From a virus: 38,423 nucleotides of DNA. The notes under the pieces are model-generated. The model was given only the letters and a program-made list of their open reading frames with translations, searched no databases and was not told the DNA's origin. Both the position numbers and the translations under genes were made by a program. The DNA is taken from IMG/VR virus record IMGVR_UViG_3300010883_000119, positions 1-38,423 of that record. One strand, given 5' to 3'. Of this stretch, positions 13,049 to 37,357 are shown piece by piece. Numbering within the stretch: the stretch's first letter is position 1; every line of letters starts with the position of its first letter.

Positions 13049-13270
13049 ATGAAGCAATACAAAGTAGAAGTGGGCGATTTGGTTCAAATCCCCGGCAGCA
13101 AACATCCGACGCATGAAGGCCCTGAGATGTTTTACGGTATCGTTACAAAGGTATCAAAGGATGATGTCACAGCGACATGGCTGTTTGGCCACCGCGTGCA
13201 GCAATGCTGGGTCGAATCTATTGAATCCTTTGGGTATCGAGTTTCAAAGCAATACTACAATATTCTATAG
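13049..13270 (+). CDS. VGDL-family small protein 5
   Basis: 73-aa protein, ATG 13049 right after the kinase-like stop. It carries K-V-E-V-G-D-L-V-Q-I-P, then MFYGIVTKV and a TATWLF strand in the family layout, with a Tyr-rich C-terminus (GYRVSKQYYNIL). It is isolated from the other clusters, which suggests the family has been dispersed around the genome. Confidence 0.75.
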   Translation: MKQYKVEVGDLVQIPGSKHPTHEGPEMFYGIVTKVSKDDVTATWLFGHRVQQCWVESIESFGYRVSKQYYNIL

Positions 13271-14296: not shown

Positions 14297-15159
14297 CGAT
14301 AGGTAACAATCTACAGTCATTGATATATGCTTATGTGTATAACACGCCAATCATATATTTCCACAGCCCGAAGCTCAACCGTTCCGAGCACTTACCAAGT
14401 GAGTTGAGCTTCGAACAGTTGCCCTTTGAAAACAAAGCGGTCGTCAAAAGTACGTCAAAGGGCGCTGTTCAATTTGGCTGTAACATAGCGGAGTTACAAG
14501 AGTACATAGCAGGTGTTTTGTCACTGTCCGGGATGTTATGGTCTGGAGAAGTCGTCAAGTCAGTGACTCTGAGGGAGAACAAGCGATTGGAGCTTGTCAT
14601 CAGAGGTGTGAGCGGCAAAACATTCATTGACTTCGAGGAGCTTAGAGTGTTTGACCCAGAACTGTTGTATGGACTGGAGATTGATCGTGTCAATCGATGG
14701 CGCTTGCTTGTTTATGATGAATGCGCTGTGACAACAAAGAAACATGACATGTTTATGCTGTTTTCCAAGGAAGATCTGGCAAACAAAGTGTACTTCGCAA
14801 AGCACAACAGACTGCTAGTTGAATCACGTATCTCTAAGAAGAACATTGATAAGTTTGATTACTCAGTCACCGCAATGAAGTACGCAGTCAAGGACATGAT
14901 CGAGCAAGCACAATTAGAACACTTCGTCAGAGGTTTGGTTGTGACACACGACAAACGAACGGTACACAATCAAGATGTGATTATATGCAAGCCAGTTGAC
15001 GGCGTTGTTTATGACAAACGAAAGATAGGAGAGTTATGCAAAGGAATCCAAGGGTATATTTCCCGAAATATCCATCAAGAAGGGACAAGAACGCAAAGTA
15101 TGTTGCAGGATGCATATCATTACCAGATGCATCAAACGATTACGGATTTGATTGGCTAG
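14272..15159 (+). CDS. hypothetical protein (295 aa)
   Basis: Starts at ATG 14272, inside the co-chaperonin gene (25-nt overlap). It seems mixed alpha/beta with no recognised domain; strand-rich parts include NTPIIYFHSP, RLELVIRGV and RWRLLVYDE. The C-terminal 40 residues overlap the next gene for 124 nt, longer than a usual phage overlap. It is probably functionally linked to the nucleotidyltransferase-like protein that follows. Confidence 0.7.
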   Translation: MCIREEEITIGNNLQSLIYAYVYNTPIIYFHSPKLNRSEHLPSELSFEQLPFENKAVVKSTSKGAVQFGCNIAELQEYIAGVLSLSGMLWSGEVVKSVTLRENKRLELVIRGVSGKTFIDFEELRVFDPELLYGLEIDRVNRWRLLVYDECAVTTKKHDMFMLFSKEDLANKVYFAKHNRLLVESRISKKNIDKFDYSVTAMKYAVKDMIEQAQLEHFVRGLVVTHDKRTVHNQDVIICKPVDGVVYDKRKIGELCKGIQGYISRNIHQEGTRTQSMLQDAYHYQMHQTITDLIG

Positions 15160-15884
15160 ATTGCTTGATGCCAATCGGCAAAGGCTATACACTGCTGGAC
15201 AGAGCCATAGCTGAGTGTGCTTACGCTGGTTGTCATACGATCTGGATAACAGTCAACGATAGCTGGCAGAACCTCATCAAGAAACGCATTGGCGATTATG
15301 TTATGGATCCGAAGTACAACAACCGGACAATGGATAGATTCCCAGAAGACAGCAAGCGAAGGGTTTATGTTTATTACGTTCCAGAGCTTGCGAAGTACAG
15401 AAAGGTCCGCTATGGTGAAGCCTGGGGAGTTATCAACTCAGCCATCTATGCAACGCGAGTGTCATTTGGAGTCGGATACTTCACAATGCCAAGCTCATAT
15501 TATGCAGCGTTTCCAATGTCACTATATGATCCGGTCATCGTTGGAGCGCACAGATCGGACATCAAAAACAACAAAGGCTTTTATCTTGAGCATGAAGGGC
15601 GAAGCATCAAGACTGGAGATCAGATGGGATTCTCGTTTGACTTCAAAGACTTCAAGAGGTCTAATCAGTCAATAGGCCAGCGCAAAATCCATGGCCGAAT
15701 GTCTTATAAAGACGTGTTCCACGGATTCAACTTCACAGACGTTGACCCGACGAGCTTAGAGTGGTATAATGAAGCTCACGATTGGGATGGATACACAGAT
15801 TACATTGCTTCAGAGCATCTGCTTGTCAAGCCTGATATCTTCATGAAGAAGCCAGTTGTGAGCAGGATAAGGAGTTGTGAATGA
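15036..15884 (+). CDS. nucleotidyltransferase-like protein
   Basis: 282 aa. Residues 25-75 hold CISLPDA, then LDCLMPIGKGYTLLDRAIAE and AGCHTIWIT, which follow the order of sugar-nucleotide pyrophosphorylases (GlmU/GalU): a strand, a glycine-containing nucleotide loop with conserved Leu, a helix, then a strand. The usual GxGTRL is replaced by IGKGYTLL. The rest includes YVYYVPELAKYRKVRYGEAWGVI and GVGYFTMPSSYYAAFP. It may make or modify an activated sugar, for instance for DNA or capsule modification, but the substrate is unknown. The C-terminus ends just before a promoter-linked small gene. Confidence 0.6.
   Translation: MQRNPRVYFPKYPSRRDKNAKYVAGCISLPDASNDYGFDWLDCLMPIGKGYTLLDRAIAECAYAGCHTIWITVNDSWQNLIKKRIGDYVMDPKYNNRTMDRFPEDSKRRVYVYYVPELAKYRKVRYGEAWGVINSAIYATRVSFGVGYFTMPSSYYAAFPMSLYDPVIVGAHRSDIKNNKGFYLEHEGRSIKTGDQMGFSFDFKDFKRSNQSIGQRKIHGRMSYKDVFHGFNFTDVDPTSLEWYNEAHDWDGYTDYIASEHLLVKPDIFMKKPVVSRIRSCE
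15742..15770 (+). promoter_or_regulatory. intragenic sigma70-type promoter ahead of DNA polymerase
   Basis: TTGACC (15742-15747), a 17-bp spacer and TATAAT (15765-15770) followed by G, inside the nucleotidyltransferase-like gene about 110 nt before the next start. It would drive 15881, 16105 and the Pol III alpha gene. Confidence 0.6.
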
Positions 15885-16108
15885 TTAAGAAACCAGTGAA
15901 TCAAAAGAGAGTGAGAGTCATCAAAGAACATTGTCAAGGACACTTCAAAGTGGGAATGGAAGGCGTTTGTACTGCAGATCTTCTTTATGAAGAGCCATAC
16001 AAAGAAGACATTTTTGCCGTTTGGTTTGATAGGAAAGTTCGAGGCGCGAATCTTCATACATTCCAGGAAGACAACACTAGAGAATATTACGAGGTGATCG
16101 GAGAATGA
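15881..16108 (+). CDS. SH3-like small protein (75 aa)
   Basis: Basic N-terminus (KKPVNQKRVRVIKEH), then HFKVGMEGVC and DIFAVWFDRKVRG, with a beta-strand pattern like the VGDL family (V-G-x-x, then x-V-W) but with the motif displaced downstream. It may be a distant member. The start overlaps the preceding stop by 4 nt and the stop overlaps the next ATG. Confidence 0.6.
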   Translation: MIKKPVNQKRVRVIKEHCQGHFKVGMEGVCTADLLYEEPYKEDIFAVWFDRKVRGANLHTFQEDNTREYYEVIGE

Positions 16109-16308
16109 CGAGTGACGAACTGTATAAGGACTTGCCAGTTAACCTGCTTGAAAGGCTTGGTTGGCAACGGAACTGGATTGAACTAGGCGACGATCAGAAG
16201 CTGCTTGTTGAAGCTGCGATGAGCGTTCATGAACGTGAGATTGCTGAGCTTAAGGCAGAATTGGAAGCTGCAGAAGCGCAGATACACCATTTCAGCGGCT
16301 GCCGCTGA
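16105..16308 (+). CDS. hypothetical coiled-coil protein (67 aa)
   Basis: The second half (EREIAELKAELEAAEAQIHH) is a clear heptad-like coiled coil; the first half has NLLERLGWQRNWIELGDDQK. It could be a small adaptor or dimer. It lies 15 nt ahead of the polymerase gene and is probably co-transcribed with it. Confidence 0.6.
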   Translation: MTSDELYKDLPVNLLERLGWQRNWIELGDDQKLLVEAAMSVHEREIAELKAELEAAEAQIHHFSGCR

Positions 16309-16323
16309 TTACTAGGAGAGAAT

Positions 16324-19300
16324 ATGAGTAACAAACGAACCAAATCAAGCATTCCATTTGTTGGATTGCATAACCACACAACCTTCAGTGTCTTCGACGC
16401 AATAGGATATCCAAGTGATCACATGAATTACGTTCACGAGAACGGCATGAACGCTTTGGCAATCACAGACCATGGCAACATGAATGCTATGGTTTATCAG
16501 TATTTACACGCCAAAAAGATGAACAAGGAAGGCAAGCAGTTCAAACCGATCTATGGTATTGAAGCTTACTTCGTTGATTCCGTCGAGGACTGGAAGAAGG
16601 ACTACGAAGAGATCAGCCTCAAAAAGAAGTTTAAGAAGCAATCAGTTGAGCTTGCAGTCGAGGACGAAGCAGAGTCCAAGAAGGCAACCAAGAACATCCT
16701 GAATAGACGTTCGCATATGATCTTGCTAGCTCAGAACGAGATTGGTCTGAAGAACATCTTCAAGCTTGTCTCGGAGTCATACAAGGGAGATAACTTTTAT
16801 CGTTATCCTCGAATGGACTTTGATATGTTGCGGAAGTACGGAGAAGGTGTGATCTGTACATCGGCGTGTTTAGGAGGTTTTTTGTCAAAAGAATACTGGA
16901 AAAACCGCGATAAGCCGGAAGCTGAAATACTCAGATCGGTCCAAAATTTAGCAGCGCAATTTTTTGAGATATTCGGAGATCGTTTCTATGGAGAGATTCA
17001 ATGGAACTCAATTCCGGAGCAACATGCAGTTAACAAGCTGATCATCAAAGCTTGCCAGAACTTAGGAATCGAAGTGGTTTCAACCGCTGATGCTCATTAC
17101 CCAAGACCGGAACTGTTCAAAAGCAGGGAGATGTACAGAAAGCTTGGTTGGATGGGGAAGAAGAAGGATTGGGAAGAAGATCCAATGCCTGAAACGCGAG
17201 CAGATCTCAAATATGAGCTATATCCAAAGAATGGCGATCAAATGTGGGAAGCTTACAAAAGCTACTCAAAGCAACGCGGTGTTGAATACGACGATGACTT
17301 CATCAAGGCAACGATCACAAGGACACACGATATCGCGTTCAATATCATCGAGGACTACGAGATTGCAACAGACATCAATCTTCCAAGCTTTGTATATGAC
17401 CAAGACCAATCACCCAACGATTTGCTTCAGAAGCACTGCGATGAAGCTATGCAAGCGAGAGGCATCACAAACAAGGTGTATGTAGATCGCCTGAAGATGG
17501 AGCTTGATACGATCTTTAACAGAGGTTTCTCAAAGTACTTCTTAACGATGAAGCAAATTAGCGATGAAGCACAGCAGCTTATGCTTGTTGGCCCATCGCG
17601 TGGATCAGCAGCGGCATCGTTGGTTGCGTACTTATTGGAGATTACACAGGTTGATCCGATCAAGCACAATCTGTTATTCAGCCGCTTTATGACCAAGGAC
17701 GAGACAAGCGGCTATCCAGACATTGATTATGATGTCTCAGATCGCATTGGATTGACTGAGTATTTCATCAAGAAGTGGGGAGAAGACAATGTTGTTCCGA
17801 TCTCAAATTATAACACTTTGCAGTTGAGATCACTAATTAAAGACATTTCGAAGTTCTATGGCATTTCGTATTCCGAGGTGAACAAGGTCACAAAGTCCAT
17901 GGTCTTCGAAGCAACGCCTAAAGCAAAGGCCGCGCATGGCATCAAAGCTGGAGTTTATACACCAACCTTTGAAGAGATCATGCAATATTCAAGCTCGTTG
18001 CAACAGTTCTTGAACAACCATCCCGAAGTCAAGGAGCATGTGAACGCATTGCAGGGACAAGTGCGCTCTGTGAGTCGCCACGCTGGCGGTGTTTTGATCG
18101 CTGACAGCCTCAACCATAACATGCCGTTGATCAACAGCGGAGGCACGATCCAGACGCCTTGGAGCGAAGGCCAGAACGTCAGGCATCTGGAACCATTGGG
18201 TTTCATCAAGTTCGACTTGCTTGGATTGTCAACTCTCCAAATGATTGACGAATGCATCAGGCACATTCTTAAGAGACACGAAGGCATTGAAGACCCAACG
18301 TTTGATGATGTCCGAAGCTTCTACGACGATCATTTGCATCCTGATGTGATTGACCTGAACGACAGATCCGTCTATAAGAACATCTTTCAGAAGGGCAAAT
18401 TCGCAGGCATTTTCCAATTCACTGAATCCGGAATGCAGAACTTCTGTAAGCTTGCCAAGCCCAACAATCTTGTTGACTTGTCAGCGGTGACATCAATATT
18501 TAGACCGTCTGCATTATCCGCAAAGGTCGACAGAGCATACGTGAAGGCAAAGAAAGACAAGACTAGCGTTACATATATTAGTAAGGAAGTCAAGAAGGTA
18601 ACGAAGGGAACATATGGACAGTTGATCTTTCAAGAGCAGATTGCTGAATTGGCACACGAGCTTGGCAAGGACATCTCACTAGATGAGGGTAACAAGCTGC
18701 GCAAGCTTCTGATCAAGAAGGGAACTGGAGAGAAGGAAGCACAGAAGAAGAAGATCAATGAGAAGTTCATAGCAGGATGCTTGGAGAAAGGTCTATCCAA
18801 GATTGATGCCGGATCGCTCTGGCAAACCATGGAGTTCTTCAGCGGCTATGGATTCAACCTTGCACACGCAACAGGTTATAGCATCATTTCATTCCAGTGC
18901 GCTTGGCTCGCTCACAGATTCGAAAGTGAATGGCTTGCCAGTTATTTGAGCGCAGTACCAGAGAAGCGCAAGGCAAAGGCAACGAACCTTGCAAAGAGCT
19001 TTGGCTACGATATCAAGAGGGTTGACGTAAACAGTTCCGAGCGAACATGGGGAATCTCAGAGGACGGTAAAACATTGATTCAACCATTGACAGCAATCAA
19101 GGGCTTGGGAGATAAGGCGATTGATCAGATCATTGCTAACAGGCCATTTAAGGACGCTGAGGATTTCCTGTTCAATGAGAACGTTGTGTATTCGAAGCTT
19201 AATAAGAAGGCTTTAGATGTTCTTTGTCGTTCTCAGGCATTGAACTGCTTGATGGACGAGCGCTTCACGGGACTCAAGGCATTCTGGTCAGCAGTCGCAG

Positions 19301-19743
19301 TTGATCGCCCAAAGACAAAGAAGAAGCTTGTTGAGAACATTGAGCTATACAAAGGAGATGGCGATTTCTCGTTGTCGGAGAAGATATGTTATCGGCCGGA
19401 TTTGACAGGAGTTTATCCGTTAGAGCTTGTTCTTCAGGACGATATGCTTGCCAAGTTCGATAAGCTTAAGATCCCGGCTTTGGGAGATTGGGACGATGCA
19501 CTGAAGATTGCATGGTTCATCCCGAAAGAGGTGATTGTCAAGGAAACCAAGTTCGGTAAAACCTATTGGATTCTAAAGGTTATTGATGCGACGAACAAAG
19601 AGAATGATATCAAATGTTGGGGGATCAGACCGCTGACAGACAAGATTCTATTGAATAAACCATACATCGCCAAACTGGAACACGATGACAAATGGGGCTT
19701 CTCTTCAAGATCCCTCAAACACAATTTCAAGTTACTGACTTAG
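16324..19743 (+). CDS. dnaE: DNA polymerase III alpha subunit (DnaE type)
   Basis: 1139-aa C-family replicative polymerase. The N-terminal PHP domain looks intact: LHNHTTFSVFD, ITDHGNMNA, GIEAYF, HMILLA, ACLGG and STADAHY. The palm has GPSRGSAAASLVAY, catalytic Asp residues in YPDIDYD (about 465-470), then the third Asp in IKFDLLGL (about 630) and GQLIFQEQIAELAH. A helix-hairpin-helix (AIKGLGDKAIDQII) follows at about 925, then an OB-like C-terminus. It should be the phage's main polymerase, loaded with the helicase and exonuclease of the first block. No clamp loader, sliding clamp or epsilon proofreading gene is seen here. SD TAGGAG precedes ATG 16324. Confidence 0.95.
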   Translation: MSNKRTKSSIPFVGLHNHTTFSVFDAIGYPSDHMNYVHENGMNALAITDHGNMNAMVYQYLHAKKMNKEGKQFKPIYGIEAYFVDSVEDWKKDYEEISLKKKFKKQSVELAVEDEAESKKATKNILNRRSHMILLAQNEIGLKNIFKLVSESYKGDNFYRYPRMDFDMLRKYGEGVICTSACLGGFLSKEYWKNRDKPEAEILRSVQNLAAQFFEIFGDRFYGEIQWNSIPEQHAVNKLIIKACQNLGIEVVSTADAHYPRPELFKSREMYRKLGWMGKKKDWEEDPMPETRADLKYELYPKNGDQMWEAYKSYSKQRGVEYDDDFIKATITRTHDIAFNIIEDYEIATDINLPSFVYDQDQSPNDLLQKHCDEAMQARGITNKVYVDRLKMELDTIFNRGFSKYFLTMKQISDEAQQLMLVGPSRGSAAASLVAYLLEITQVDPIKHNLLFSRFMTKDETSGYPDIDYDVSDRIGLTEYFIKKWGEDNVVPISNYNTLQLRSLIKDISKFYGISYSEVNKVTKSMVFEATPKAKAAHGIKAGVYTPTFEEIMQYSSSLQQFLNNHPEVKEHVNALQGQVRSVSRHAGGVLIADSLNHNMPLINSGGTIQTPWSEGQNVRHLEPLGFIKFDLLGLSTLQMIDECIRHILKRHEGIEDPTFDDVRSFYDDHLHPDVIDLNDRSVYKNIFQKGKFAGIFQFTESGMQNFCKLAKPNNLVDLSAVTSIFRPSALSAKVDRAYVKAKKDKTSVTYISKEVKKVTKGTYGQLIFQEQIAELAHELGKDISLDEGNKLRKLLIKKGTGEKEAQKKKINEKFIAGCLEKGLSKIDAGSLWQTMEFFSGYGFNLAHATGYSIISFQCAWLAHRFESEWLASYLSAVPEKRKAKATNLAKSFGYDIKRVDVNSSERTWGISEDGKTLIQPLTAIKGLGDKAIDQIIANRPFKDAEDFLFNENVVYSKLNKKALDVLCRSQALNCLMDERFTGLKAFWSAVAVDRPKTKKKLVENIELYKGDGDFSLSEKICYRPDLTGVYPLELVLQDDMLAKFDKLKIPALGDWDDALKIAWFIPKEVIVKETKFGKTYWILKVIDATNKENDIKCWGIRPLTDKILLNKPYIAKLEHDDKWGFSSRSLKHNFKLLT

Positions 19744-21752: not shown

Positions 21753-22036
21753 GCAACCAACTAAGAAAGATCCGAAGGAACCAAACAAGGGAGCTTATTA
21801 AAGACTTCAAGAAGTCGATGAAGAACGAAATCAAAGAGAAGTTCAACATGTTTGAACGAATCCCAGAGAACTGCGAAGTCTGTAACACAGAGTTCGACAA
21901 GAAGGACAAAGAGATGGCATTTAGCTGGCGAGTGTTCGTCAAACAAGACGCCATCAAGCTTTACTGTCCAGAGTGTTTTGGGAAAGCTGAGAAACTGATC
22001 GAGAAACTATCAAAGGAGAAGGAAGATAATGTTTGA
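21749..22036 (+). CDS. zinc-ribbon protein (95 aa)
   Basis: Basic, helical N-terminal half (RKIRRNQTRELIKDFKKSMK) followed by two Cys pairs, CEVC and CPEC, about 36 residues apart, which would bind one zinc ion. A helix (KLIEKLSKEKED) ends the protein. Probably nucleic acid- or protein-binding. Overlaps the next start by 8 nt. Confidence 0.65.
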   Translation: MSNQLRKIRRNQTRELIKDFKKSMKNEIKEKFNMFERIPENCEVCNTEFDKKDKEMAFSWRVFVKQDAIKLYCPECFGKAEKLIEKLSKEKEDNV

Positions 22037-23123
22037 TTTGGATATGCACAGGGAACAATTGAAGTCGTTTGGAGTGAAGCGAGAACCATTAGGACGGGCG
22101 CTGAGGGACACATTTTGTTATGACGATGTTTCATTAGTTCCGAAGTACTCTGAAGTCCGAACTCGTTCTCAGATTAACACATCAAGCATCTTAGACCACA
22201 AGAGAGAGATCTTCTTTGATCTTCCAATCTTCGCAGCTTCGATGGACACAATCGCCGAGCTTGATATGGCACAGGCTATGTCCGAATCGGGCTGCGGAGC
22301 GATCATTCATCGATATAACACAGTCAAGGAACAATGTGATATTGTTGAGGAATACTCAAAGAAGTATCGCAATTGTATGGCTGCAGTCGGAGTGACAGGA
22401 GATTATGTCGAAAGGTCAAAGGCTTTGGTTAAAGCCGGATGCAGCGTGATCTGTATCGACATCGCACATGGACATCATGTTCTTATGAAAGAGGCGCTTA
22501 GAGACATTAGACAAGCAGTTGGTTATGACATTCATATTATGGCCGGAGCAGTTGCAACTGTGGAGGGATACAATGATTTGGCTGATTGGGGCGCTGATAG
22601 TGTTAGATGTGGTATTGGAGTTGGCAGTATTTGTTCTTCTATGTTACAAGCGGGATGCGGAATTCCGGGATTGGAAACAATTCTTCAATGTGCGAACTCT
22701 GGTAGAACAGCAAAGATTGTCGCTGATGGCGGTATTACAAATTCGGGCTGTATTGTTAAGGCTCTCGCTGCTGGCGCTGATTTTGTTATTCTGGGATCAC
22801 TTCTGTCTGGAAGTGATGAATGCCCTGGCGAGTTTGTGGTAAAGGACAACCGACAATACAAAGCATATCGAGGCATGGCAAGCAAGGAAGCGCAAGTTGA
22901 GTTCAAGGGTCATTATTCATCATATGAAGGAATCGCGACTGAAGTGCCTCGCAAAGGGCCAGTAGAAGATATCATTGCTGATTTAAATCGTGGCATCCGA
23001 AGCGGTTTTTCATATTGTGGAGCAAAGAACATTAAAGAGCTTCGCGAAAGGGCAGAGTTTGTCAGGCGATCGGCGATCGGCTCAGTTGAAAGCTCAACAC
23101 ACATTGTGAACAAACTATCATGA
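22029..23123 (+). CDS. IMP dehydrogenase / GMP reductase family enzyme
   Basis: 364-aa TIM-barrel enzyme without CBS domains. The catalytic loop [18 protein letters not shown] carries the active Cys (compare GPGSICTT); [33 protein letters not shown] and [14 protein letters not shown] are typical of the family, the latter nearer to IMPDH. The flap-like segment ([18 protein letters not shown]) has the short GMPR-like spacing and lacks the IMPDH Arg-Tyr pair. Either GMP to IMP (GuaC) or IMP to XMP (GuaB) is possible. It would shift purine pools for phage DNA synthesis. Confidence 0.9.
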
Positions 23124-25538: not shown

Positions 25539-27107
25539 ATGAGCATCAAGTATATCAAAGGGACAGATCTGCATTCGGCATTGGCAGAAGGTATTGAAGA
25601 CCTATCTGAATATGTCTCAGCTACTTTGGGTCCAGCAGGCCGGAACGTGTTGCTCAAAAGCAAGGGACAGCCCGCAATGATTACGAAAGACGGAGTGACC
25701 ATTGCCAAGTTCATGGCGGTTCAAGGCCACTTCGAATCAGTTGGTGCTGAAGTCATCAAGGAAGTCGCAGCCTTAACAAACGAAGCAGTTGGCGACGGAA
25801 CAACCACATCAATTGTGTTAGCTGCTGCATTGTACAAGGAAGCTCAGAAGTACTTGAATTCAGGCATCAGGCCAATTCACCTCAAGAGAGGCATGGACGC
25901 AGCTTGTGACCAGTTGGTTGACATCTTAGAAGAAAGCTCAATTCCAATCGCCAGCAGAGAAGACATTGAGCATATCGCTGCCATTTCAGCCAATGGCGAC
26001 AAACGAATTGGGCAGCTTATCTCAGAGGCGATTGATAAGATTGGCAAAGACGGAGCAATCAGCGTCGAAGATTCACGAACCAACAAGACGTATTTAGATG
26101 TTGTCGAAGGCTTCTCATTTACCGCTGGATATGCTTCAGAATCATTCGTGACTGACGAGAGAAAGAAGCACATCAAGCATGAGGAATGCTTGCTGTTTGT
26201 AACAGACCGAAAGCTTGAACTTGAAGAGATGATGCCAATGCTTGAGCTTGTGTCGAGGGACAACAAACCATTCGTAATCATTGCAGAAGACTTTGATAAG
26301 AAGTTCTTAAGCGCTTTGATTCTCAACGCAGTTCGTGGAACAATGAAGGTTGTTGCCATCAAAGCTCCGAAGTATGGAGAAGAGCGCAGAAACATCTTAG
26401 CTGATTTAGCACTATCAGTTGGAGCTAAGTTCATCTCCAGAGAACATGGCGTAAAGCTTCGCGAGTTGAAACTAGAAGATCTCGGACGAGCAAAGACTAT
26501 CGAAGTAACAAAAGACAAGACAACAATCGCAGGTGGCAAATGTGATTACGACCTTATCGAAGAGCGTATTGAATATCTCAAAGAAGAAATCAGAGAAGAA
26601 GACAACATCACAATTTGTGAGAGGATTCAAGAGCGTATCACAAGCCTATCATCAGGAGTTGCTGTGATTCGTGTTGGTGCATATTCTCAGCTTGAGATGA
26701 CAGAGAAGAAACACCGCATTGAAGACGCGCTGGAGGCTGTTCACGCTGCCCAAGCTGGCGGGATTCATGGTGGCGGCGGGATTCCATTGTGTCGAGCAGG
26801 AGCGAACCTGAAGCCATTGGAGCCTATGTCCGAAAGCGAGACATTTGGGTTCAACATTGTGAAGCGAGCGTCTGAAACACCGATGAGGAAGATTACAGAG
26901 AATGCTGATATGTCAGCGGATCTGATCAAAGAGAAGATCCTTGAAATGGACGATGACACAGGCTATGATTTCTCAACTGGTGAAGCTGTTAACCTGATTG
27001 AAGCTGGCATTGTTGATCCAGTGAGCGTGACAACCACTGCGTTGAGGAATGCTGTGTCTGTTGTTGGAGCATTGATCAGCACAAACCATGCGATTGTGGA
27101 GGATTGA
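25539..27107 (+). CDS. groEL: GroEL-type chaperonin
   Basis: 522-aa group I chaperonin. The equatorial ATP site is intact: TLGPAGRNVLL, ITKDGVTIAK, and VGDGTTTSIVLA (normally A-G-D-G-T-T-T-A). An apical domain covers roughly residues 190-370 (KIGKDGAISVED, APKYGEERRNILADLA), and the ending GIVDPVSVTTTALRNA is typical. It is about 25 residues shorter than E. coli GroEL and lacks the GGM-rich tail. It likely folds a phage protein, such as capsid subunits, with the GroES-like protein of 14.0 kb. SD AAGGAACG upstream. Confidence 0.95.
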   Translation: MSIKYIKGTDLHSALAEGIEDLSEYVSATLGPAGRNVLLKSKGQPAMITKDGVTIAKFMAVQGHFESVGAEVIKEVAALTNEAVGDGTTTSIVLAAALYKEAQKYLNSGIRPIHLKRGMDAACDQLVDILEESSIPIASREDIEHIAAISANGDKRIGQLISEAIDKIGKDGAISVEDSRTNKTYLDVVEGFSFTAGYASESFVTDERKKHIKHEECLLFVTDRKLELEEMMPMLELVSRDNKPFVIIAEDFDKKFLSALILNAVRGTMKVVAIKAPKYGEERRNILADLALSVGAKFISREHGVKLRELKLEDLGRAKTIEVTKDKTTIAGGKCDYDLIEERIEYLKEEIREEDNITICERIQERITSLSSGVAVIRVGAYSQLEMTEKKHRIEDALEAVHAAQAGGIHGGGGIPLCRAGANLKPLEPMSESETFGFNIVKRASETPMRKITENADMSADLIKEKILEMDDDTGYDFSTGEAVNLIEAGIVDPVSVTTTALRNAVSVVGALISTNHAIVED

Positions 27108-32937: not shown

Positions 32938-33012
32938 CTCTACTACCAGTGAAGTACCACCCTACCACCAGTACCCCCTCCCCTTCGAGATCGTGGTGTT
33001 ATGAGGAAGAAG

Positions 33013-33216
33013 ATGGAAGTTGGAGACTTAGTATACTACGACGGTGTCACAGCCGATGTTAGTGGACAAATAAGGTTTTATGGTACTGTAGTTGAAGTGG
33101 TTGAATTATCAGATAAGTGTCGTATTTATTGGTATCATTTAGCAGGCAGCCGCCCAGGCCGACGATATATTAATGATATTAGCAGGCTTGTAATTGAGGA
33201 TGATGATGAAATTTGA
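33013..33216 (+). CDS. VGDL-family small protein 7
   Basis: M-E-V-G-D-L-V-Y start at 33013, behind GAGGAAG (an alternative ATG at 33001 adds MRKK). FYGTVVEVVE and CRIYWYH are the GxV and x-W strands. 67 aa, with an Arg-rich end segment (SRPGRRYIND). First of the main 33-37 kb array. Overlaps the next gene by 11 nt. Confidence 0.75.
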   Translation: MEVGDLVYYDGVTADVSGQIRFYGTVVEVVELSDKCRIYWYHLAGSRPGRRYINDISRLVIEDDDEI

Positions 33217-33412
33217 GGTTGGGGATTTGGTGAAGCGCGGAGGATCCAAAGTTATGTTTATTGGCCAGCGCATAGATGACGCAGGTATTATTATTAATTC
33301 TTTCCTTGCCTCTGTCCATCGCCACTCAGGCCACTATGTGTACAGAGTCCATTGGATTCGTTCAGGAAAACGTCACAGCCATTACAGCGACAGCTTGCGA
33401 CACTACGAATGA
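33206..33412 (+). CDS. VGDL-family small protein 8
   Basis: ATG 33206 (M-K-F-E-V-G-D-L-V-K) overlaps the previous gene. 68 aa, with GIIINSFL and YRVHWIRSGK as family strands and a His-rich C-terminus (RHSHYSDSLRHYE). It ends at the largest non-coding gap of the window. Confidence 0.75.
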   Translation: MKFEVGDLVKRGGSKVMFIGQRIDDAGIIINSFLASVHRHSGHYVYRVHWIRSGKRHSHYSDSLRHYE

Positions 33413-33700
33413 CTTACATCACTTAGCCAGCTAACGACCTCGAACGTCTGTCAACTGCCATTCATCAAGTACATTGTAACCTGTCTGTGGATGATTGTCA
33501 ACTCAACAACCAACCACAGCAAATCATTGAACAAATTTAAGGCACCAAAATGTGTTTGTAATAGACGTTCGTCAAGTGGATGGCTATGAATAGAACATCA
33601 TTGTCTTTCTCAGTTCCCGATCATAGGCTATGAACATATTGACCATACGCCCAAACCCGTGTATAATGTCCTCAGCAACGCAGCAATATGTCTGCTTGCC
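33413..33700 (+). other. 288-bp non-coding region
   Basis: No ORF of note. It contains an inverted repeat CGAACGTCT (33441-33449) / AGACGTTCG (33563-33571), a shorter one CTGTGG (33485-33490) / CCACAG (33514-33519), with ATGATT/AATCAT beside it, and the promoter at 33639. No T-run terminator is obvious. It could carry an operator, a small RNA or a replication or packaging site. Confidence 0.4.
33639..33667 (+). promoter_or_regulatory. sigma70-type promoter of the VGDL array
   Basis: TTGACC (33639-33644), a 17-bp spacer and TATAAT (33662-33667) followed by G, with GTG directly ahead of the -10. The leader to ATG 33701 is about 27 nt without a visible SD. Confidence 0.7.
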
Positions 33701-33880
33701 ATGGATCACACAATAATCAAAGATAAAGATGGACTTCCATTAGAAGTTGGTGACTTGACCGTAAAGGCCCGTTGGTTTGAATGCCCAAAGGAACATTGGC
33801 AATCTGAAACCACTCATTATAAACATAACTCTTTTAGTCATGAATTCCCATGGATTATGTTAGTTGACTATGACGTATAA
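33701..33880 (+). CDS. VGDL-family small protein 9
   Basis: 59 aa from ATG 33701. The motif is P-L-E-V-G-D-L-T at residues 13-20, thus displaced by an N-terminal extension (MDHTIIKDKDG). The W-containing strand KARWFECP follows at once, and the C-terminus is FPWIMLVDYDV. Overlaps the next start by 11 nt. Confidence 0.65.
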   Translation: MDHTIIKDKDGLPLEVGDLTVKARWFECPKEHWQSETTHYKHNSFSHEFPWIMLVDYDV

Positions 33881-34085
33881 CGACCTCAAAATAGGCGCTT
33901 TGATCTGGGCAAAAGCCAATGAATCATATGCGATTCTTACAGATCTCCGCTTTGATGTTCACGAATGTTTGGTAACTGTTCATTGGCTTGCTCCGCGAGC
34001 CGACGTTTCTATTCATCCTATCAAGAGCAATAGCACTTTCAACAACTGGAAGCTGATAAACGAAGGTATCGCAGATGACAGTTGA
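33870..34085 (+). CDS. VGDL-family small protein 10 (degenerate)
   Basis: ATG 33870. The motif is K-I-G-A-L-I (A for D), then YAILTDLR and LVTVHWLAPRAD. 71 aa. Its strands and length match the family although the GD is lost. Stop overlaps the next start. Confidence 0.6.
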   Translation: MTYNDLKIGALIWAKANESYAILTDLRFDVHECLVTVHWLAPRADVSIHPIKSNSTFNNWKLINEGIADDS

Positions 34086-34284
34086 AGTAGGCGAACTGTA
34101 TGAAATGGCTAACTTAGGAAGCGGTCAATGGTGTTGGAAATACTGCATATTGATAGACGAATCAATTGCGATATCATTTCACAGACTTCTTTCAGATCAA
34201 GACGCTGCAATTAACATGCACTTTTGTGTTGATCACTTTCAGCGCTATGTTAATACCGGAGACATCAAGAAGGTTGAACGGTGA
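34075..34284 (+). CDS. VGDL-family small protein 11
   Basis: M-T-V-E-V-G-E-L-Y (E for D) at 34075. 69 aa. TGACAGTTGAAGTAGGCGA at its start is repeated exactly at the start of the next gene, a direct DNA repeat and sign of duplication. WKYCILIDESIAISFH gives the later strands. Overlaps the next GTG by 4 nt. Confidence 0.7.
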   Translation: MTVEVGELYEMANLGSGQWCWKYCILIDESIAISFHRLLSDQDAAINMHFCVDHFQRYVNTGDIKKVER

Positions 34285-34469
34285 CAGTTGAAGTAGGCGA
34301 TTTGCTTGAGAGCTTGTTTGACCAGTCTCCATTGGAGTTTGCAATTGTCACTGAACTCGGCCCAGAAGGATTTCAGTTCCTTTGGCTTCCAAGCAGCGAG
34401 ACACCGAGATACGAAATCGGATACGTTTCACATGAGAAAGTCAGCAAGCAATTCAAGGCGATACAATGA
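34281..34469 (+). CDS. VGDL-family small protein 12
   Basis: GTG start, M-T-V-E-V-G-D-L-L. 62 aa, with EFAIVTEL and FQFLWLP strands. Shares its first 19 nt with the preceding paralogue. ATGA overlap with the next gene. Confidence 0.7.
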   Translation: MTVEVGDLLESLFDQSPLEFAIVTELGPEGFQFLWLPSSETPRYEIGYVSHEKVSKQFKAIQ

Positions 34470-34636
34470 AGAAGCTTGAAATCGGAGACTTAGTTCGCTG
34501 GGATTATGGTGAACGCTCTAAGAAACTAACATACGGAATCATAACGAAAGTTGAGGACGATTCTGTTCATGTTTATTGGCCAGACATCAGAGACACTTGT
34601 GAATACTACGATACGGCTCTAATCAAGGTAAACTAG
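34466..34636 (+). CDS. VGDL-family small protein 13
   Basis: 56 aa, short for the family: M-K-K-L-E-I-G-D-L-V-R-W, then LTYGIITKVEDDS and VHVYWPDI, the cleanest example of motif, GII, VxW. It lies one base from the next paralogue, which shares the LVRW coding sequence, suggesting tandem duplication. Confidence 0.7.
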   Translation: MKKLEIGDLVRWDYGERSKKLTYGIITKVEDDSVHVYWPDIRDTCEYYDTALIKVN

Positions 34637-34637
34637 C

Positions 34638-34865
34638 ATGAAGTTTGAAGTAGGAGATTTAGTTCGCTGGGCAATGCCCAGCGAATTTCGCTGGGCATTG
34701 CCCAAGCTTCGAATAGATGGTGATTATTTAATGATTTCAGGGATAATCGAGGGAGATTCTTCGTTTGACGCTAGATATGGTGTGATTCATATACGACATG
34801 GTAAATACTATAGAGAAAGGCTTGGCATAGATTACGTTGATGAGTATTTCTCAAGGATAAACTAA
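34638..34865 (+). CDS. VGDL-family small protein 14 with palindromic insert
   Basis: 75 aa: M-K-F-E-V-G-D-L-V-R-W, then a segment (AMPSEFRWALPKL) that repeats R-W-A-(M/L)-P and is encoded by a perfect 18+1+18 nt inverted repeat (34668-34704). Compared with paralogue 13, it is an in-frame insertion of about 14 residues after LVRW. The rest (MISGIIEGDSS, GVIHIRHGK) is family-like. Confidence 0.7.
   Translation: MKFEVGDLVRWAMPSEFRWALPKLRIDGDYLMISGIIEGDSSFDARYGVIHIRHGKYYRERLGIDYVDEYFSRIN
34668..34704 (+). repeat. perfect 37-bp palindrome (18+1+18)
   Basis: The left arm 34668-34685 (TGGGCAATGCCCAGCGAA) is the exact reverse complement of the right arm 34687-34704; each arm also contains its own TGGGCA/TGCCCA hairpin. 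In frame inside a VGDL gene. Confidence 0.85.
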
Positions 34866-34866
34866 C

Positions 34867-35961
34867 ATGGGCAAAACACAACTAAAGAACTACATCCGAA
34901 AGAACAAGAAGACACTGGAAACACTAGCCAAACAGGATATCCATGAGATTGAACGATTGATCTCGGAAGGCTTCATTTCCAAACGGAAACATGACGATTG
35001 CGATCTCTGGATTCTGAACTATACGAACAAGGCGCAGTTCGATGGCAAGTGGAACAAGTACACTCTGCAATGTCGAGGGCTTATCGTTGATAGTGACTGG
35101 AATATCATGTCACGTCCGTTCAAGAAGTTCTTCAATTACGGGGAGCTTTCTAACTACGGAGTACGATTGCCAAATGAACCGTTCAAGGTGTCTGAGAAGA
35201 TGGACGGCTCGCTTGGGATCTCATACTTCGTCAACGATGTGCCGTACATCGCAACCAGGGGTTCATTCCATTCACCGCAGGCAGAGAAAGCAAGCGAAAT
35301 GCTGGACAGCAAATACCAGAAATCAAAGAGCAAGCTCCGAAAAGATCGCACATACCTTTTTGAGATTATCTTCCCAGAAAACCGAATCGTTGTTGATTAC
35401 GGCAAGGTTGAAGAGTTGTGTCTTCTCGCCATTGTGGACAACGCAACTGGCAAGCTGTTGCCACTAGAGAAGCTTGGGTTTCCGCTGGTTAAGCAATATG
35501 ATGGTATCGATGATTATGATACGCTTGCTGCACTTGAGACAGACAACGCAGAGGGCTTTGTAATCACGTTCGAATCTGGTCTGATGATGAAGATCAAGTT
35601 TGAGAACTACATGCGATTACATAAGCTCATGACTGGATTGACTGAAAAGCACATTTGGGAGCTTTGTAAGGAAGGCGGTAAACTGACTGATATCCTTCAT
35701 AATGTGCCTGATGAGTTTTATGATTGGGCAATCGCAATTGAGTCTGACTTACAAAAACGATGGTCAATCACGTTTGCAGAATCAGTGCGTATTCATGGGA
35801 GAATCCTGAAGTATCTGAATGGCTTTGTTCCTGGCTGGAATCGTAAGAGCTATGCCTTGGAAGCAAAGAACTATCCAGAATACATGGGAATGCTGTTTCG
35901 CCAATTGGATGGCCAGCAGGACGAGCTTAAGGAGTTGGTATGGAACGCAATTCAACCATAA
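34867..35961 (+). CDS. T4 Rnl1-like RNA ligase
   Basis: 364 aa of the covalent nucleotidyltransferase superfamily: motif I KMDGS (nucleophilic Lys about residue 111), a following region GISYF, motif IIIa/III (YLFEIIFPENRIVVDY), motif IV AEGFVI and motif V MMKIKFENY. The C-terminal helical domain (WSITFAESVRIHGRILKYL) is typical of Rnl1, which repairs tRNA cut by host defences. No PNK or tRNA repair partner is seen in this window. The start is 1 nt after a VGDL gene; the stop overlaps the next VGDL gene by 22 nt. Confidence 0.88.
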   Translation: MGKTQLKNYIRKNKKTLETLAKQDIHEIERLISEGFISKRKHDDCDLWILNYTNKAQFDGKWNKYTLQCRGLIVDSDWNIMSRPFKKFFNYGELSNYGVRLPNEPFKVSEKMDGSLGISYFVNDVPYIATRGSFHSPQAEKASEMLDSKYQKSKSKLRKDRTYLFEIIFPENRIVVDYGKVEELCLLAIVDNATGKLLPLEKLGFPLVKQYDGIDDYDTLAALETDNAEGFVITFESGLMMKIKFENYMRLHKLMTGLTEKHIWELCKEGGKLTDILHNVPDEFYDWAIAIESDLQKRWSITFAESVRIHGRILKYLNGFVPGWNRKSYALEAKNYPEYMGMLFRQLDGQQDELKELVWNAIQP

Positions 35962-36122
35962 CGTTGGAGCTTGGGGACATCATTCGATACATCCCAGATG
36001 ATGTCATCGGTATTGTTTGTGACCAACGTGATGATATTAGACATGAAGTTCGATGGTTCGATGGTGATGTAACATTTGAAGATACTTGGTCAGATTCGGA
36101 AGCTTACGAGAAGGTATCATGA
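35940..36122 (+). CDS. VGDL-family small protein 15
   Basis: ATG 35940, inside the RNA ligase end. 60 aa: T-L-E-L-G-D-I-I-R-Y, then VIGIVCDQR and EVRWFDGD. A close relative of members 16 and 18 by layout; the ATGA overlap continues the array. Confidence 0.7.
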   Translation: MERNSTITLELGDIIRYIPDDVIGIVCDQRDDIRHEVRWFDGDVTFEDTWSDSEAYEKVS

Positions 36123-36301
36123 TATTAGAAGTAGGAGACTTGGTTTACGGTTGGGGAATGCCTGGAACGATTGGCGTTATCCTTGAGGATCCTAACCCAG
36201 AAGCGTCACATGTTTTGCTTTATTGGCTCAAGACGCCAGATGGTCTTTTCGATCGCACGGTTGAGGAAGGAACGGTTAGTTGTTTGGTCAAGGCGAGCTA
36301 G
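36119..36301 (+). CDS. VGDL-family small protein 16
   Basis: M-I-L-E-V-G-D-L-V-Y at 36119, then TIGVILEDPN and HVLLYWLKTPDG. 60 aa. The motif-GVI-LYW order is complete. One base separates its stop (36301) from the next ATG at 36303. Confidence 0.75.
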   Translation: MILEVGDLVYGWGMPGTIGVILEDPNPEASHVLLYWLKTPDGLFDRTVEEGTVSCLVKAS

Positions 36302-36302
36302 C

Positions 36303-36524
36303 ATGAAGCTTGAAGTCGGTGACATCATTAAGTATCGTAACACGAGTTACTTTGATAAATACTACTTCATTGTAGTTAGCGCTTACAAACGGAAAGGCGA
36401 CGATCTGTATGACTGCGTATTCATTGGAACAATCGCCAACGGTTACGGTCGCGCACGTTTTGGTGAGTTTTGCGGCGGATTGCGTGGTACAGAATTGCAT
36501 CGCTACGATAAGGTAACGGAATGA
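36303..36524 (+). CDS. VGDL-family small protein 17
   Basis: ATG 36303, M-K-L-E-V-G-D-I-I-K-Y. 73 aa, with YYFIVVSAY and DCVFIGTIANGYG and a Gly-rich end (EFCGGLRGTELHRYD). CTAGCATGAAG at the start is shared with member 14. Overlaps the next start by 4 nt. Confidence 0.7.
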   Translation: MKLEVGDIIKYRNTSYFDKYYFIVVSAYKRKGDDLYDCVFIGTIANGYGRARFGEFCGGLRGTELHRYDKVTE

Positions 36525-36724
36525 ACACAATGCAACCAGGAGATCTCGTTAAGCTTTCGAAGCATGGCAGGCGACAAGGATATTGGCGTTTGACTCACAG
36601 GCAGGGAATCCTTACGGAAATCGATGGTGCAAAATACCATGTTTACTGGATTGATCTCAATAGAGAAGAAAGACATCAGAGCTTAACTGTGTTTAGCAGG
36701 CAAGAACTTATGAGGATACAATGA
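36521..36724 (+). CDS. VGDL-family small protein 18
   Basis: 67 aa: M-Q-P-G-D-L-V-K-L at residues 4-12, then RQGILTEIDG and YHVYWIDLN. The C-terminus is charged. ATGA overlap with the next gene. Confidence 0.7.
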   Translation: MNTMQPGDLVKLSKHGRRQGYWRLTHRQGILTEIDGAKYHVYWIDLNREERHQSLTVFSRQELMRIQ

Positions 36725-36912
36725 AGTTTGAAGTAGGCGATCTAATCAAGAGCGAACTATGGTATGGATTTGTTATAAAAATCAAAGGTGAGCATATGCT
36801 TTGTTATTTTATACCGGACCAGCGCCAACTGGCGGGGACATGGCACCCGCCACCGGGGTCTAATTGGTTTTCGATGCAAACATACAAACGGAGTTATAAG
36901 AAAGTATCATGA
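36721..36912 (+). CDS. VGDL-family small protein 19
   Basis: 63 aa: M-K-F-E-V-G-D-L-I-K-S, then YGFVIKIKG and LCYFIPDQR. Its first 17 nt are identical to those of members 4 and 14. A Pro-rich loop (WHPPPGSN) is unique to it. ATGA overlap with the next gene. Confidence 0.75.
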   Translation: MKFEVGDLIKSELWYGFVIKIKGEHMLCYFIPDQRQLAGTWHPPPGSNWFSMQTYKRSYKKVS

Positions 36913-37151
36913 GCAGATCCCGCAGAAAAACGAAGGTGTTTGGAATCACAACTGCCGATTCTGAGAAGCAGGCAAAACGCAGAGCAAACAGGCGTTTCAG
37001 GCGCGTCTGTAAGCTCTATCTCGGCGATATCATGGATGATGACAGCGATTCAGCTTTTCCAGAAATGGACGAAGTTGCAGACGTTTGGGATCATGACAAG
37101 GATGGCAAGCGATATCGGACAGATGCAACTGATAAGGATATGAGGAAATGA
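36909..37151 (+). CDS. basic small protein with acidic tail (80 aa)
   Basis: Not a VGDL member. The N-terminus is strongly basic with MSRSRRKTKVFGITTADSEK, then KRRANRRFRRVC, and a late acidic stretch (MDDDSDSAFPEMDEV). The opening resembles small basic proteins seen in several phages and may bind nucleic acid, but the function is unknown. It is inserted within the array and coupled by 4-nt overlaps. Confidence 0.65.
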   Translation: MSRSRRKTKVFGITTADSEKQAKRRANRRFRRVCKLYLGDIMDDDSDSAFPEMDEVADVWDHDKDGKRYRTDATDKDMRK

Positions 37152-37357
37152 CCATCAAAGTCGGAACGTTAGTCCGCTCAACTAGGTGGCTGATGAACCA
37201 GCGACAAAGCAATGAGCGCCTTTATGGCATCGTCATGAAAGAGCCCGTAAAGTATCACAATGCAACCAACGTGTTGGTGAAAGTCCGATGGTTCTCAGAA
37301 CGCGGTTCATTTAGCTTCCCGACGTTGCTGGAAGAGTTTGAAATCGTTAGCGATTGA
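37148..37357 (+). CDS. VGDL-family small protein 20
   Basis: 69 aa: T-I-K-V-G-T-L-V-R (T for D), then LYGIVMKEP and VLVKVRWFSERG. The family's motif, GIV and VRW all appear. It is the last gene of the array; a promoter for the DNA ligase follows. Confidence 0.7.
   Translation: MTIKVGTLVRSTRWLMNQRQSNERLYGIVMKEPVKYHNATNVLVKVRWFSERGSFSFPTLLEEFEIVSD

Follow-up and report, generated by a model that had tools for sequence, protein, structure and literature searches.

Quasi-palindrome mutations are described by Ripley's model, which was first proposed in bacteriophages, and in-gene cases are known from T4 rII, from E. coli thyA and rpsL and from 39 yeast genes (PMC8604942). Template switching has been reported to make perfect stems in a single event (PMC8794818). 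Perfect inverted repeats inside translated genes also occur in the mitochondria of Nematomorpha, where they are numerous and long (up to 284 bp) and where both arms encode conserved residues (PMC6649704). Rickettsia palindromic elements (RPEs), of about 100-150 bp, are dispersed in Rickettsia and Wolbachia with copies in several genes, and can lie in frame within an open reading frame (PMC3767692).

Here we analyse a perfect palindrome inside a small phage gene. The DNA under study, called the window below, is the whole 38,423-nt stretch of IMG/VR virus record IMGVR_UViG_3300010883_000119. The palindrome probably goes back to one short template-switch (quasi-palindrome) error during replication of the gene. 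The locus adds a further case to a known mutational process and reveals no new element or system. As in the mutations that follow Ripley's model, an inverted copy of adjacent sequence would lie within a coding gene, the junction microhomology would stem from a small pre-existing hairpin and a perfect stem would be made in one step. Unlike those cases, which concern arm homogenisation or loss of function, the outcome here would be a net in-frame insertion of 24 nt in a natural phage consensus, relative to a reconstructed ancestral state. The Nematomorpha palindromes share with this locus a perfect inverted repeat in a translated gene, whereas the phage has one short repeat in a variable loop. 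With RPEs the locus has in common a palindromic sequence in frame within an ORF; however, it is a 37-nt palindrome in a phage contig, present once and undispersed. It would offer a clean natural case of one-step growth of a protein by a template switch that keeps the frame, within a phage gene family that evolves fast, and it illustrates how the loops of small phage proteins can lengthen.

Position and rarity of the palindrome

The inverted repeat (18+1+18 nt, 34668-34704, unstranded) consists of a left arm at 34668-34685, a 1-nt spacer and a right arm at 34687-34704. Its centre at 34686 is the first base of codon 17. The first-pass annotation had called the repeat perfect, and an exact reverse-complement check confirmed that the arms are 100% complementary. 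The palindrome is in frame and covers codons 11-23 of a 75-codon gene on the plus strand (34638-34865), the protein of which starts MKFEVGDLV-RWAMP-SEF-RWALP-KL. The annotation had placed RWAMP and RWALP units after a conserved LVRW; both units are present, but they do not both follow it, as the first R-W is that of LVRW itself.

No other short-loop inverted repeat in the 38.4-kb window comes close to this one in strength. The runner-up, with 11+1+11 nt (34663-34685), lies inside the same block and is followed by repeats with 9-nt arms. In 20 first-order Markov sequences of equal length, arms reached 12 nt at most, and the analytic chance expectation in the window for an arm of at least 18 nt with a spacer of up to 10 is ~6e-6. 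A set of 120 related-phage sequences (1.32 Mb, window included) contains one further perfect hairpin with 18-nt arms, in sequence L003, where it sits over a 69-aa ORF that is possibly no gene. The remaining hairpins of the set are mostly terminator-like, and the palindrome at 34668-34704 is the strongest that is clearly in a gene.

Anatomy of the repeated block

The palindrome belongs to an alternating block (34663-34704) of the form X-A-X'-T-X-T-x', in which X is TTCGCTGGGCA, X' its reverse complement and x' the first six bases of X'. The beginning of this block is the nested perfect inverted repeat of 11+1+11 nt (TTCGCTGGGCA A TGCCCAGCGAA; 34663-34685, unstranded). The two RWA-P units share one frame at a distance of 24 nt and agree in 17 of 18 bases. 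Their loop bases differ, with A at 34674 in the left unit and T at 34698 in the right. TGGGCA is common to both junction options. On the plus strand, TGGGCA at 34692-34697 pairs with TGCCCA at 34699-34704, and TGGGCA-T-TGCCCA forms a small hairpin (6+1+6), the putative quasi-palindrome of the gene before the event.

A probable template switch as the origin

The block fits one event in which an inverted copy of 18 nt and one extra nucleotide were added, with TGGGCA as a 6-nt microhomology and a gain of 24 nt (eight codons). A template-switch product had been among the options of the first-pass annotation, and the anatomy of the block supports it well. Before the event, the gene would have read ...TTAGTTCGC-TGGGCA-T-TGCCCA-AGC..., giving the protein VGDLVRWALPKL. 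The microhomology at the first switch would exist because TGGGCA-T-TGCCCA is itself a small hairpin. A nascent strand ending in TGGGCA would anneal to TGCCCA on the other strand and copy back, producing ATGCCCAGCGAA. Near TTCGC it would rejoin its own template, gaining one extra T, and copy the segment a second time. The net event would be one inverted copy of TTCGCTGGGCATTGCCCA put directly before TTCGCTGGGCATTGCCCA, plus one T.

One inverted copy explains all 18 nucleotides of the arm, including the A/T exchange in the loop, as expected when the opposite strand is copied. A switch between strands would give the observed A, whereas folding back of the nascent plus strand on itself would give T in the left unit as well as in the right. 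The opposite copying direction is also possible, and either arm could be the original. What speaks against a template switch is the return junction, which lacks microhomology and requires one untemplated T.

The candidate insert (34668-34691, plus strand) would comprise the 18-nt inverted copy, a T and TTCGC; a repetition of 11 nt allows its edges to shift by as many as 11 nt. Its length is a multiple of 3 and the reading frame is kept. The gene would have survived the gain, with eight residues (AMPSEFRW or a sliding equivalent) added to a tolerant β1-β2 loop. The event looks recent, since the arms are undiverged although the closest relative is ~27% different in DNA.

The VGDL family and its variable loop

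The gene at 34638-34865 is part of a tandem VGDL family found in the phage and in its closest relative. About 17 small VGDL-type paralogues (55-80 aa) are clustered in the phage, at 566-2341, 13052-13270 and 33001-37357. The 75-aa protein matches a family profile built from the other VGDL-type proteins (E=1.3e-5). An RNA-ligase-like gene lies directly downstream (34867-35961, plus strand). The neighbouring paralogue (34466-34636, plus strand; MKKLEIGDLVRWDYGERS...) has 'TTAGTTCGCTGGG' in common with the gene and then diverges, and sequence comparison of the two ORFs bears out the earlier observation that this neighbour lacks the palindrome. The paralogues are probably SH3/KOW-like, and among eight VGDL-type proteins scanned none matches a Pfam or PHROG family well. 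Two further matches to the family among the loci compared (L089 and L113) are very weak.

Between VGDL and the next conserved strand, the loop measures 26 residues here; in 22 of the 23 other members it has 7-20, and the remaining one, L17603, could not be scored for loop length. This β1-β2 loop, which is variable across the family and holds the extra residues, is the longest among the scorable members; it would have 18 residues without the putative eight. An AlphaFold2 model of the protein predicts a small β-barrel at moderate confidence (pLDDT 69.8); the extra residues lie between strands 8-11 and 30-37 in a low-confidence stretch, as would be expected for a variable loop. Structural neighbours are weak, the best being SH3-like/KOW proteins such as ribosomal L21e and NusG. 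As none falls below E=0.001, the SH3-like fold that the model probably represents is a lead and not a result.

Relatives and the putative form before the event

The closest relative, IMGVR_UViG_3300008050_000080, was located via DnaE and a second protein. Its DnaE is ~80% identical to that of the phage, and its DNA is ~73% identical over the most conserved core. Its syntenic VGDL cluster lies at 14629-17169 (14629-18313 for the whole listed set of VGDL-type genes). The positional counterpart of our gene, at 16126-16338, has diverged so far that the loop could not be aligned, and searching this relative directly with the 75-aa protein gave no match. The same protein has no relatives in IMG/VR, none that convince in phage genomes and no profile match in Pfam or PHROGs. 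The neighbourhood of the RNA ligase yielded no orthologue either, because relatives of that protein are at most ~47% identical, over part of its length only. The pre-event pattern has one match in IMG/VR, a chance match in an unrelated ORF.

IMG/VR, phage genomes and the closest relative yielded no close orthologue that lacks the insert, and for this reason we infer the insertion from the repeat structure. The RWAxP pair is absent from all 23 other family members. None of these is a close orthologue, so they answer only in part the earlier question whether the residues are conserved in all homologues.

The phage also encodes a PolIII-alpha-type polymerase, an IMP-dehydrogenase-like protein and a GroEL-like chaperonin (16324-19743, 22029-23123 and 25539-27107), the last two named from their translations only. 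In DnaE, identity to even the closest cultured relatives is only ~30%.

Alternative explanations

Hairpin chimeras of this form arise during amplification and library preparation, and the window is an IMG/VR-type virus record, available as consensus only. It is nevertheless unlikely that a fold-back chimera in a metagenome library entered the consensus, where a base needs majority support; moreover, the frame is kept, for which the odds by chance are 1 in 3, and 38 kb contain only one such block. The shared frame and near identity of the two RWA-P units would also suit a normal ancestral part of the protein, the DNA of which became palindromic by coding coincidence or short tandem duplication. 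We regard this as highly improbable in view of the chance expectation given above and of the missing RWAxP pair in the rest of the family. A tandem duplication accounts for 17 of 18 bases but for none of the six that come next, so that the GCGAA which completes the palindrome would be a coincidence, and it leaves the A/T loop swap unexplained. Least credible is a small mobile palindrome inserted in frame, as RPEs can be, which the first-pass annotation had considered. The window holds no second copy beyond the palindrome's own arms, even at up to 3 mismatches, IMG/VR does not contain the core, and bacterial matches are confined to a Rhodobacteraceae permease coding site and an unrelated Brevibacterium palindrome family. 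In addition, the arm sequence is accounted for by the gene's own LVRW codons, and the insert of ~24 nt is far below the size of RPEs.

The palindrome could also have a role. The predicted RNA hairpin begins 26 nt into the ORF. At -38.5 kcal/mol (z = -7.6) it is very stable, as any perfect 18-bp repeat would be. This stability, and the rank of the hairpin among the related phages, would suit a functional mRNA hairpin or a DNA dyad under selection, which might, for instance, slow down elongation at an early stage or be bound by a dimeric regulator. We consider such a function very unlikely: no relative carries the hairpin, it lies downstream of the initiation footprint, ribosomes unwind hairpins, and its origin would still be best explained by template switching. 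An intrinsic terminator was rejected, as no T run (U in the RNA) follows the hairpin (downstream AGCTTCGA, upstream TAGTTCGC), and so was a known RNA family, for which Rfam gave chance matches only, all well below gathering scores. The very stable fold leaves some room for the regulatory mRNA hairpin of the first-pass annotation, but nothing indicates such a role. Slightly more doubtful again is a selected in-gene control element, a phage-specific mRNA hairpin or DNA dyad, that was made by template switching and kept for tuning translation of the gene or of the downstream RNA-ligase-like gene. Most likely, the mRNA hairpin is a by-product.

Bacterial matches to the palindrome core

A search of 84,980 bacterial and archaeal genomes returned 15 matches to the palindrome core, in two unrelated groups. 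Both are unrelated to the phage palindrome, because the sequences differ just outside the searched core. Seven of the 15 are from Rhodobacteraceae and form an 11+1+11 palindrome with the same core. In the two loci that were read, the core is part of the N-terminal coding region of an ABC-transporter permease (LAQRISLG); the others have arms of 11 nt only and flanks that are mostly alike among themselves. The palindrome at the permease start is apparently a coding coincidence. The other eight matches are from Brevibacterium and belong to a palindrome family with the core ATGGTGCCCAGCGAA-N-TTCGCTGGGCACCAT, in which the arms are mostly longer (16-23 nt). One copy was checked and is intergenic. 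Two copies are found in one B. antiquum contig, so the Brevibacterium palindrome looks like a dispersed repeat.
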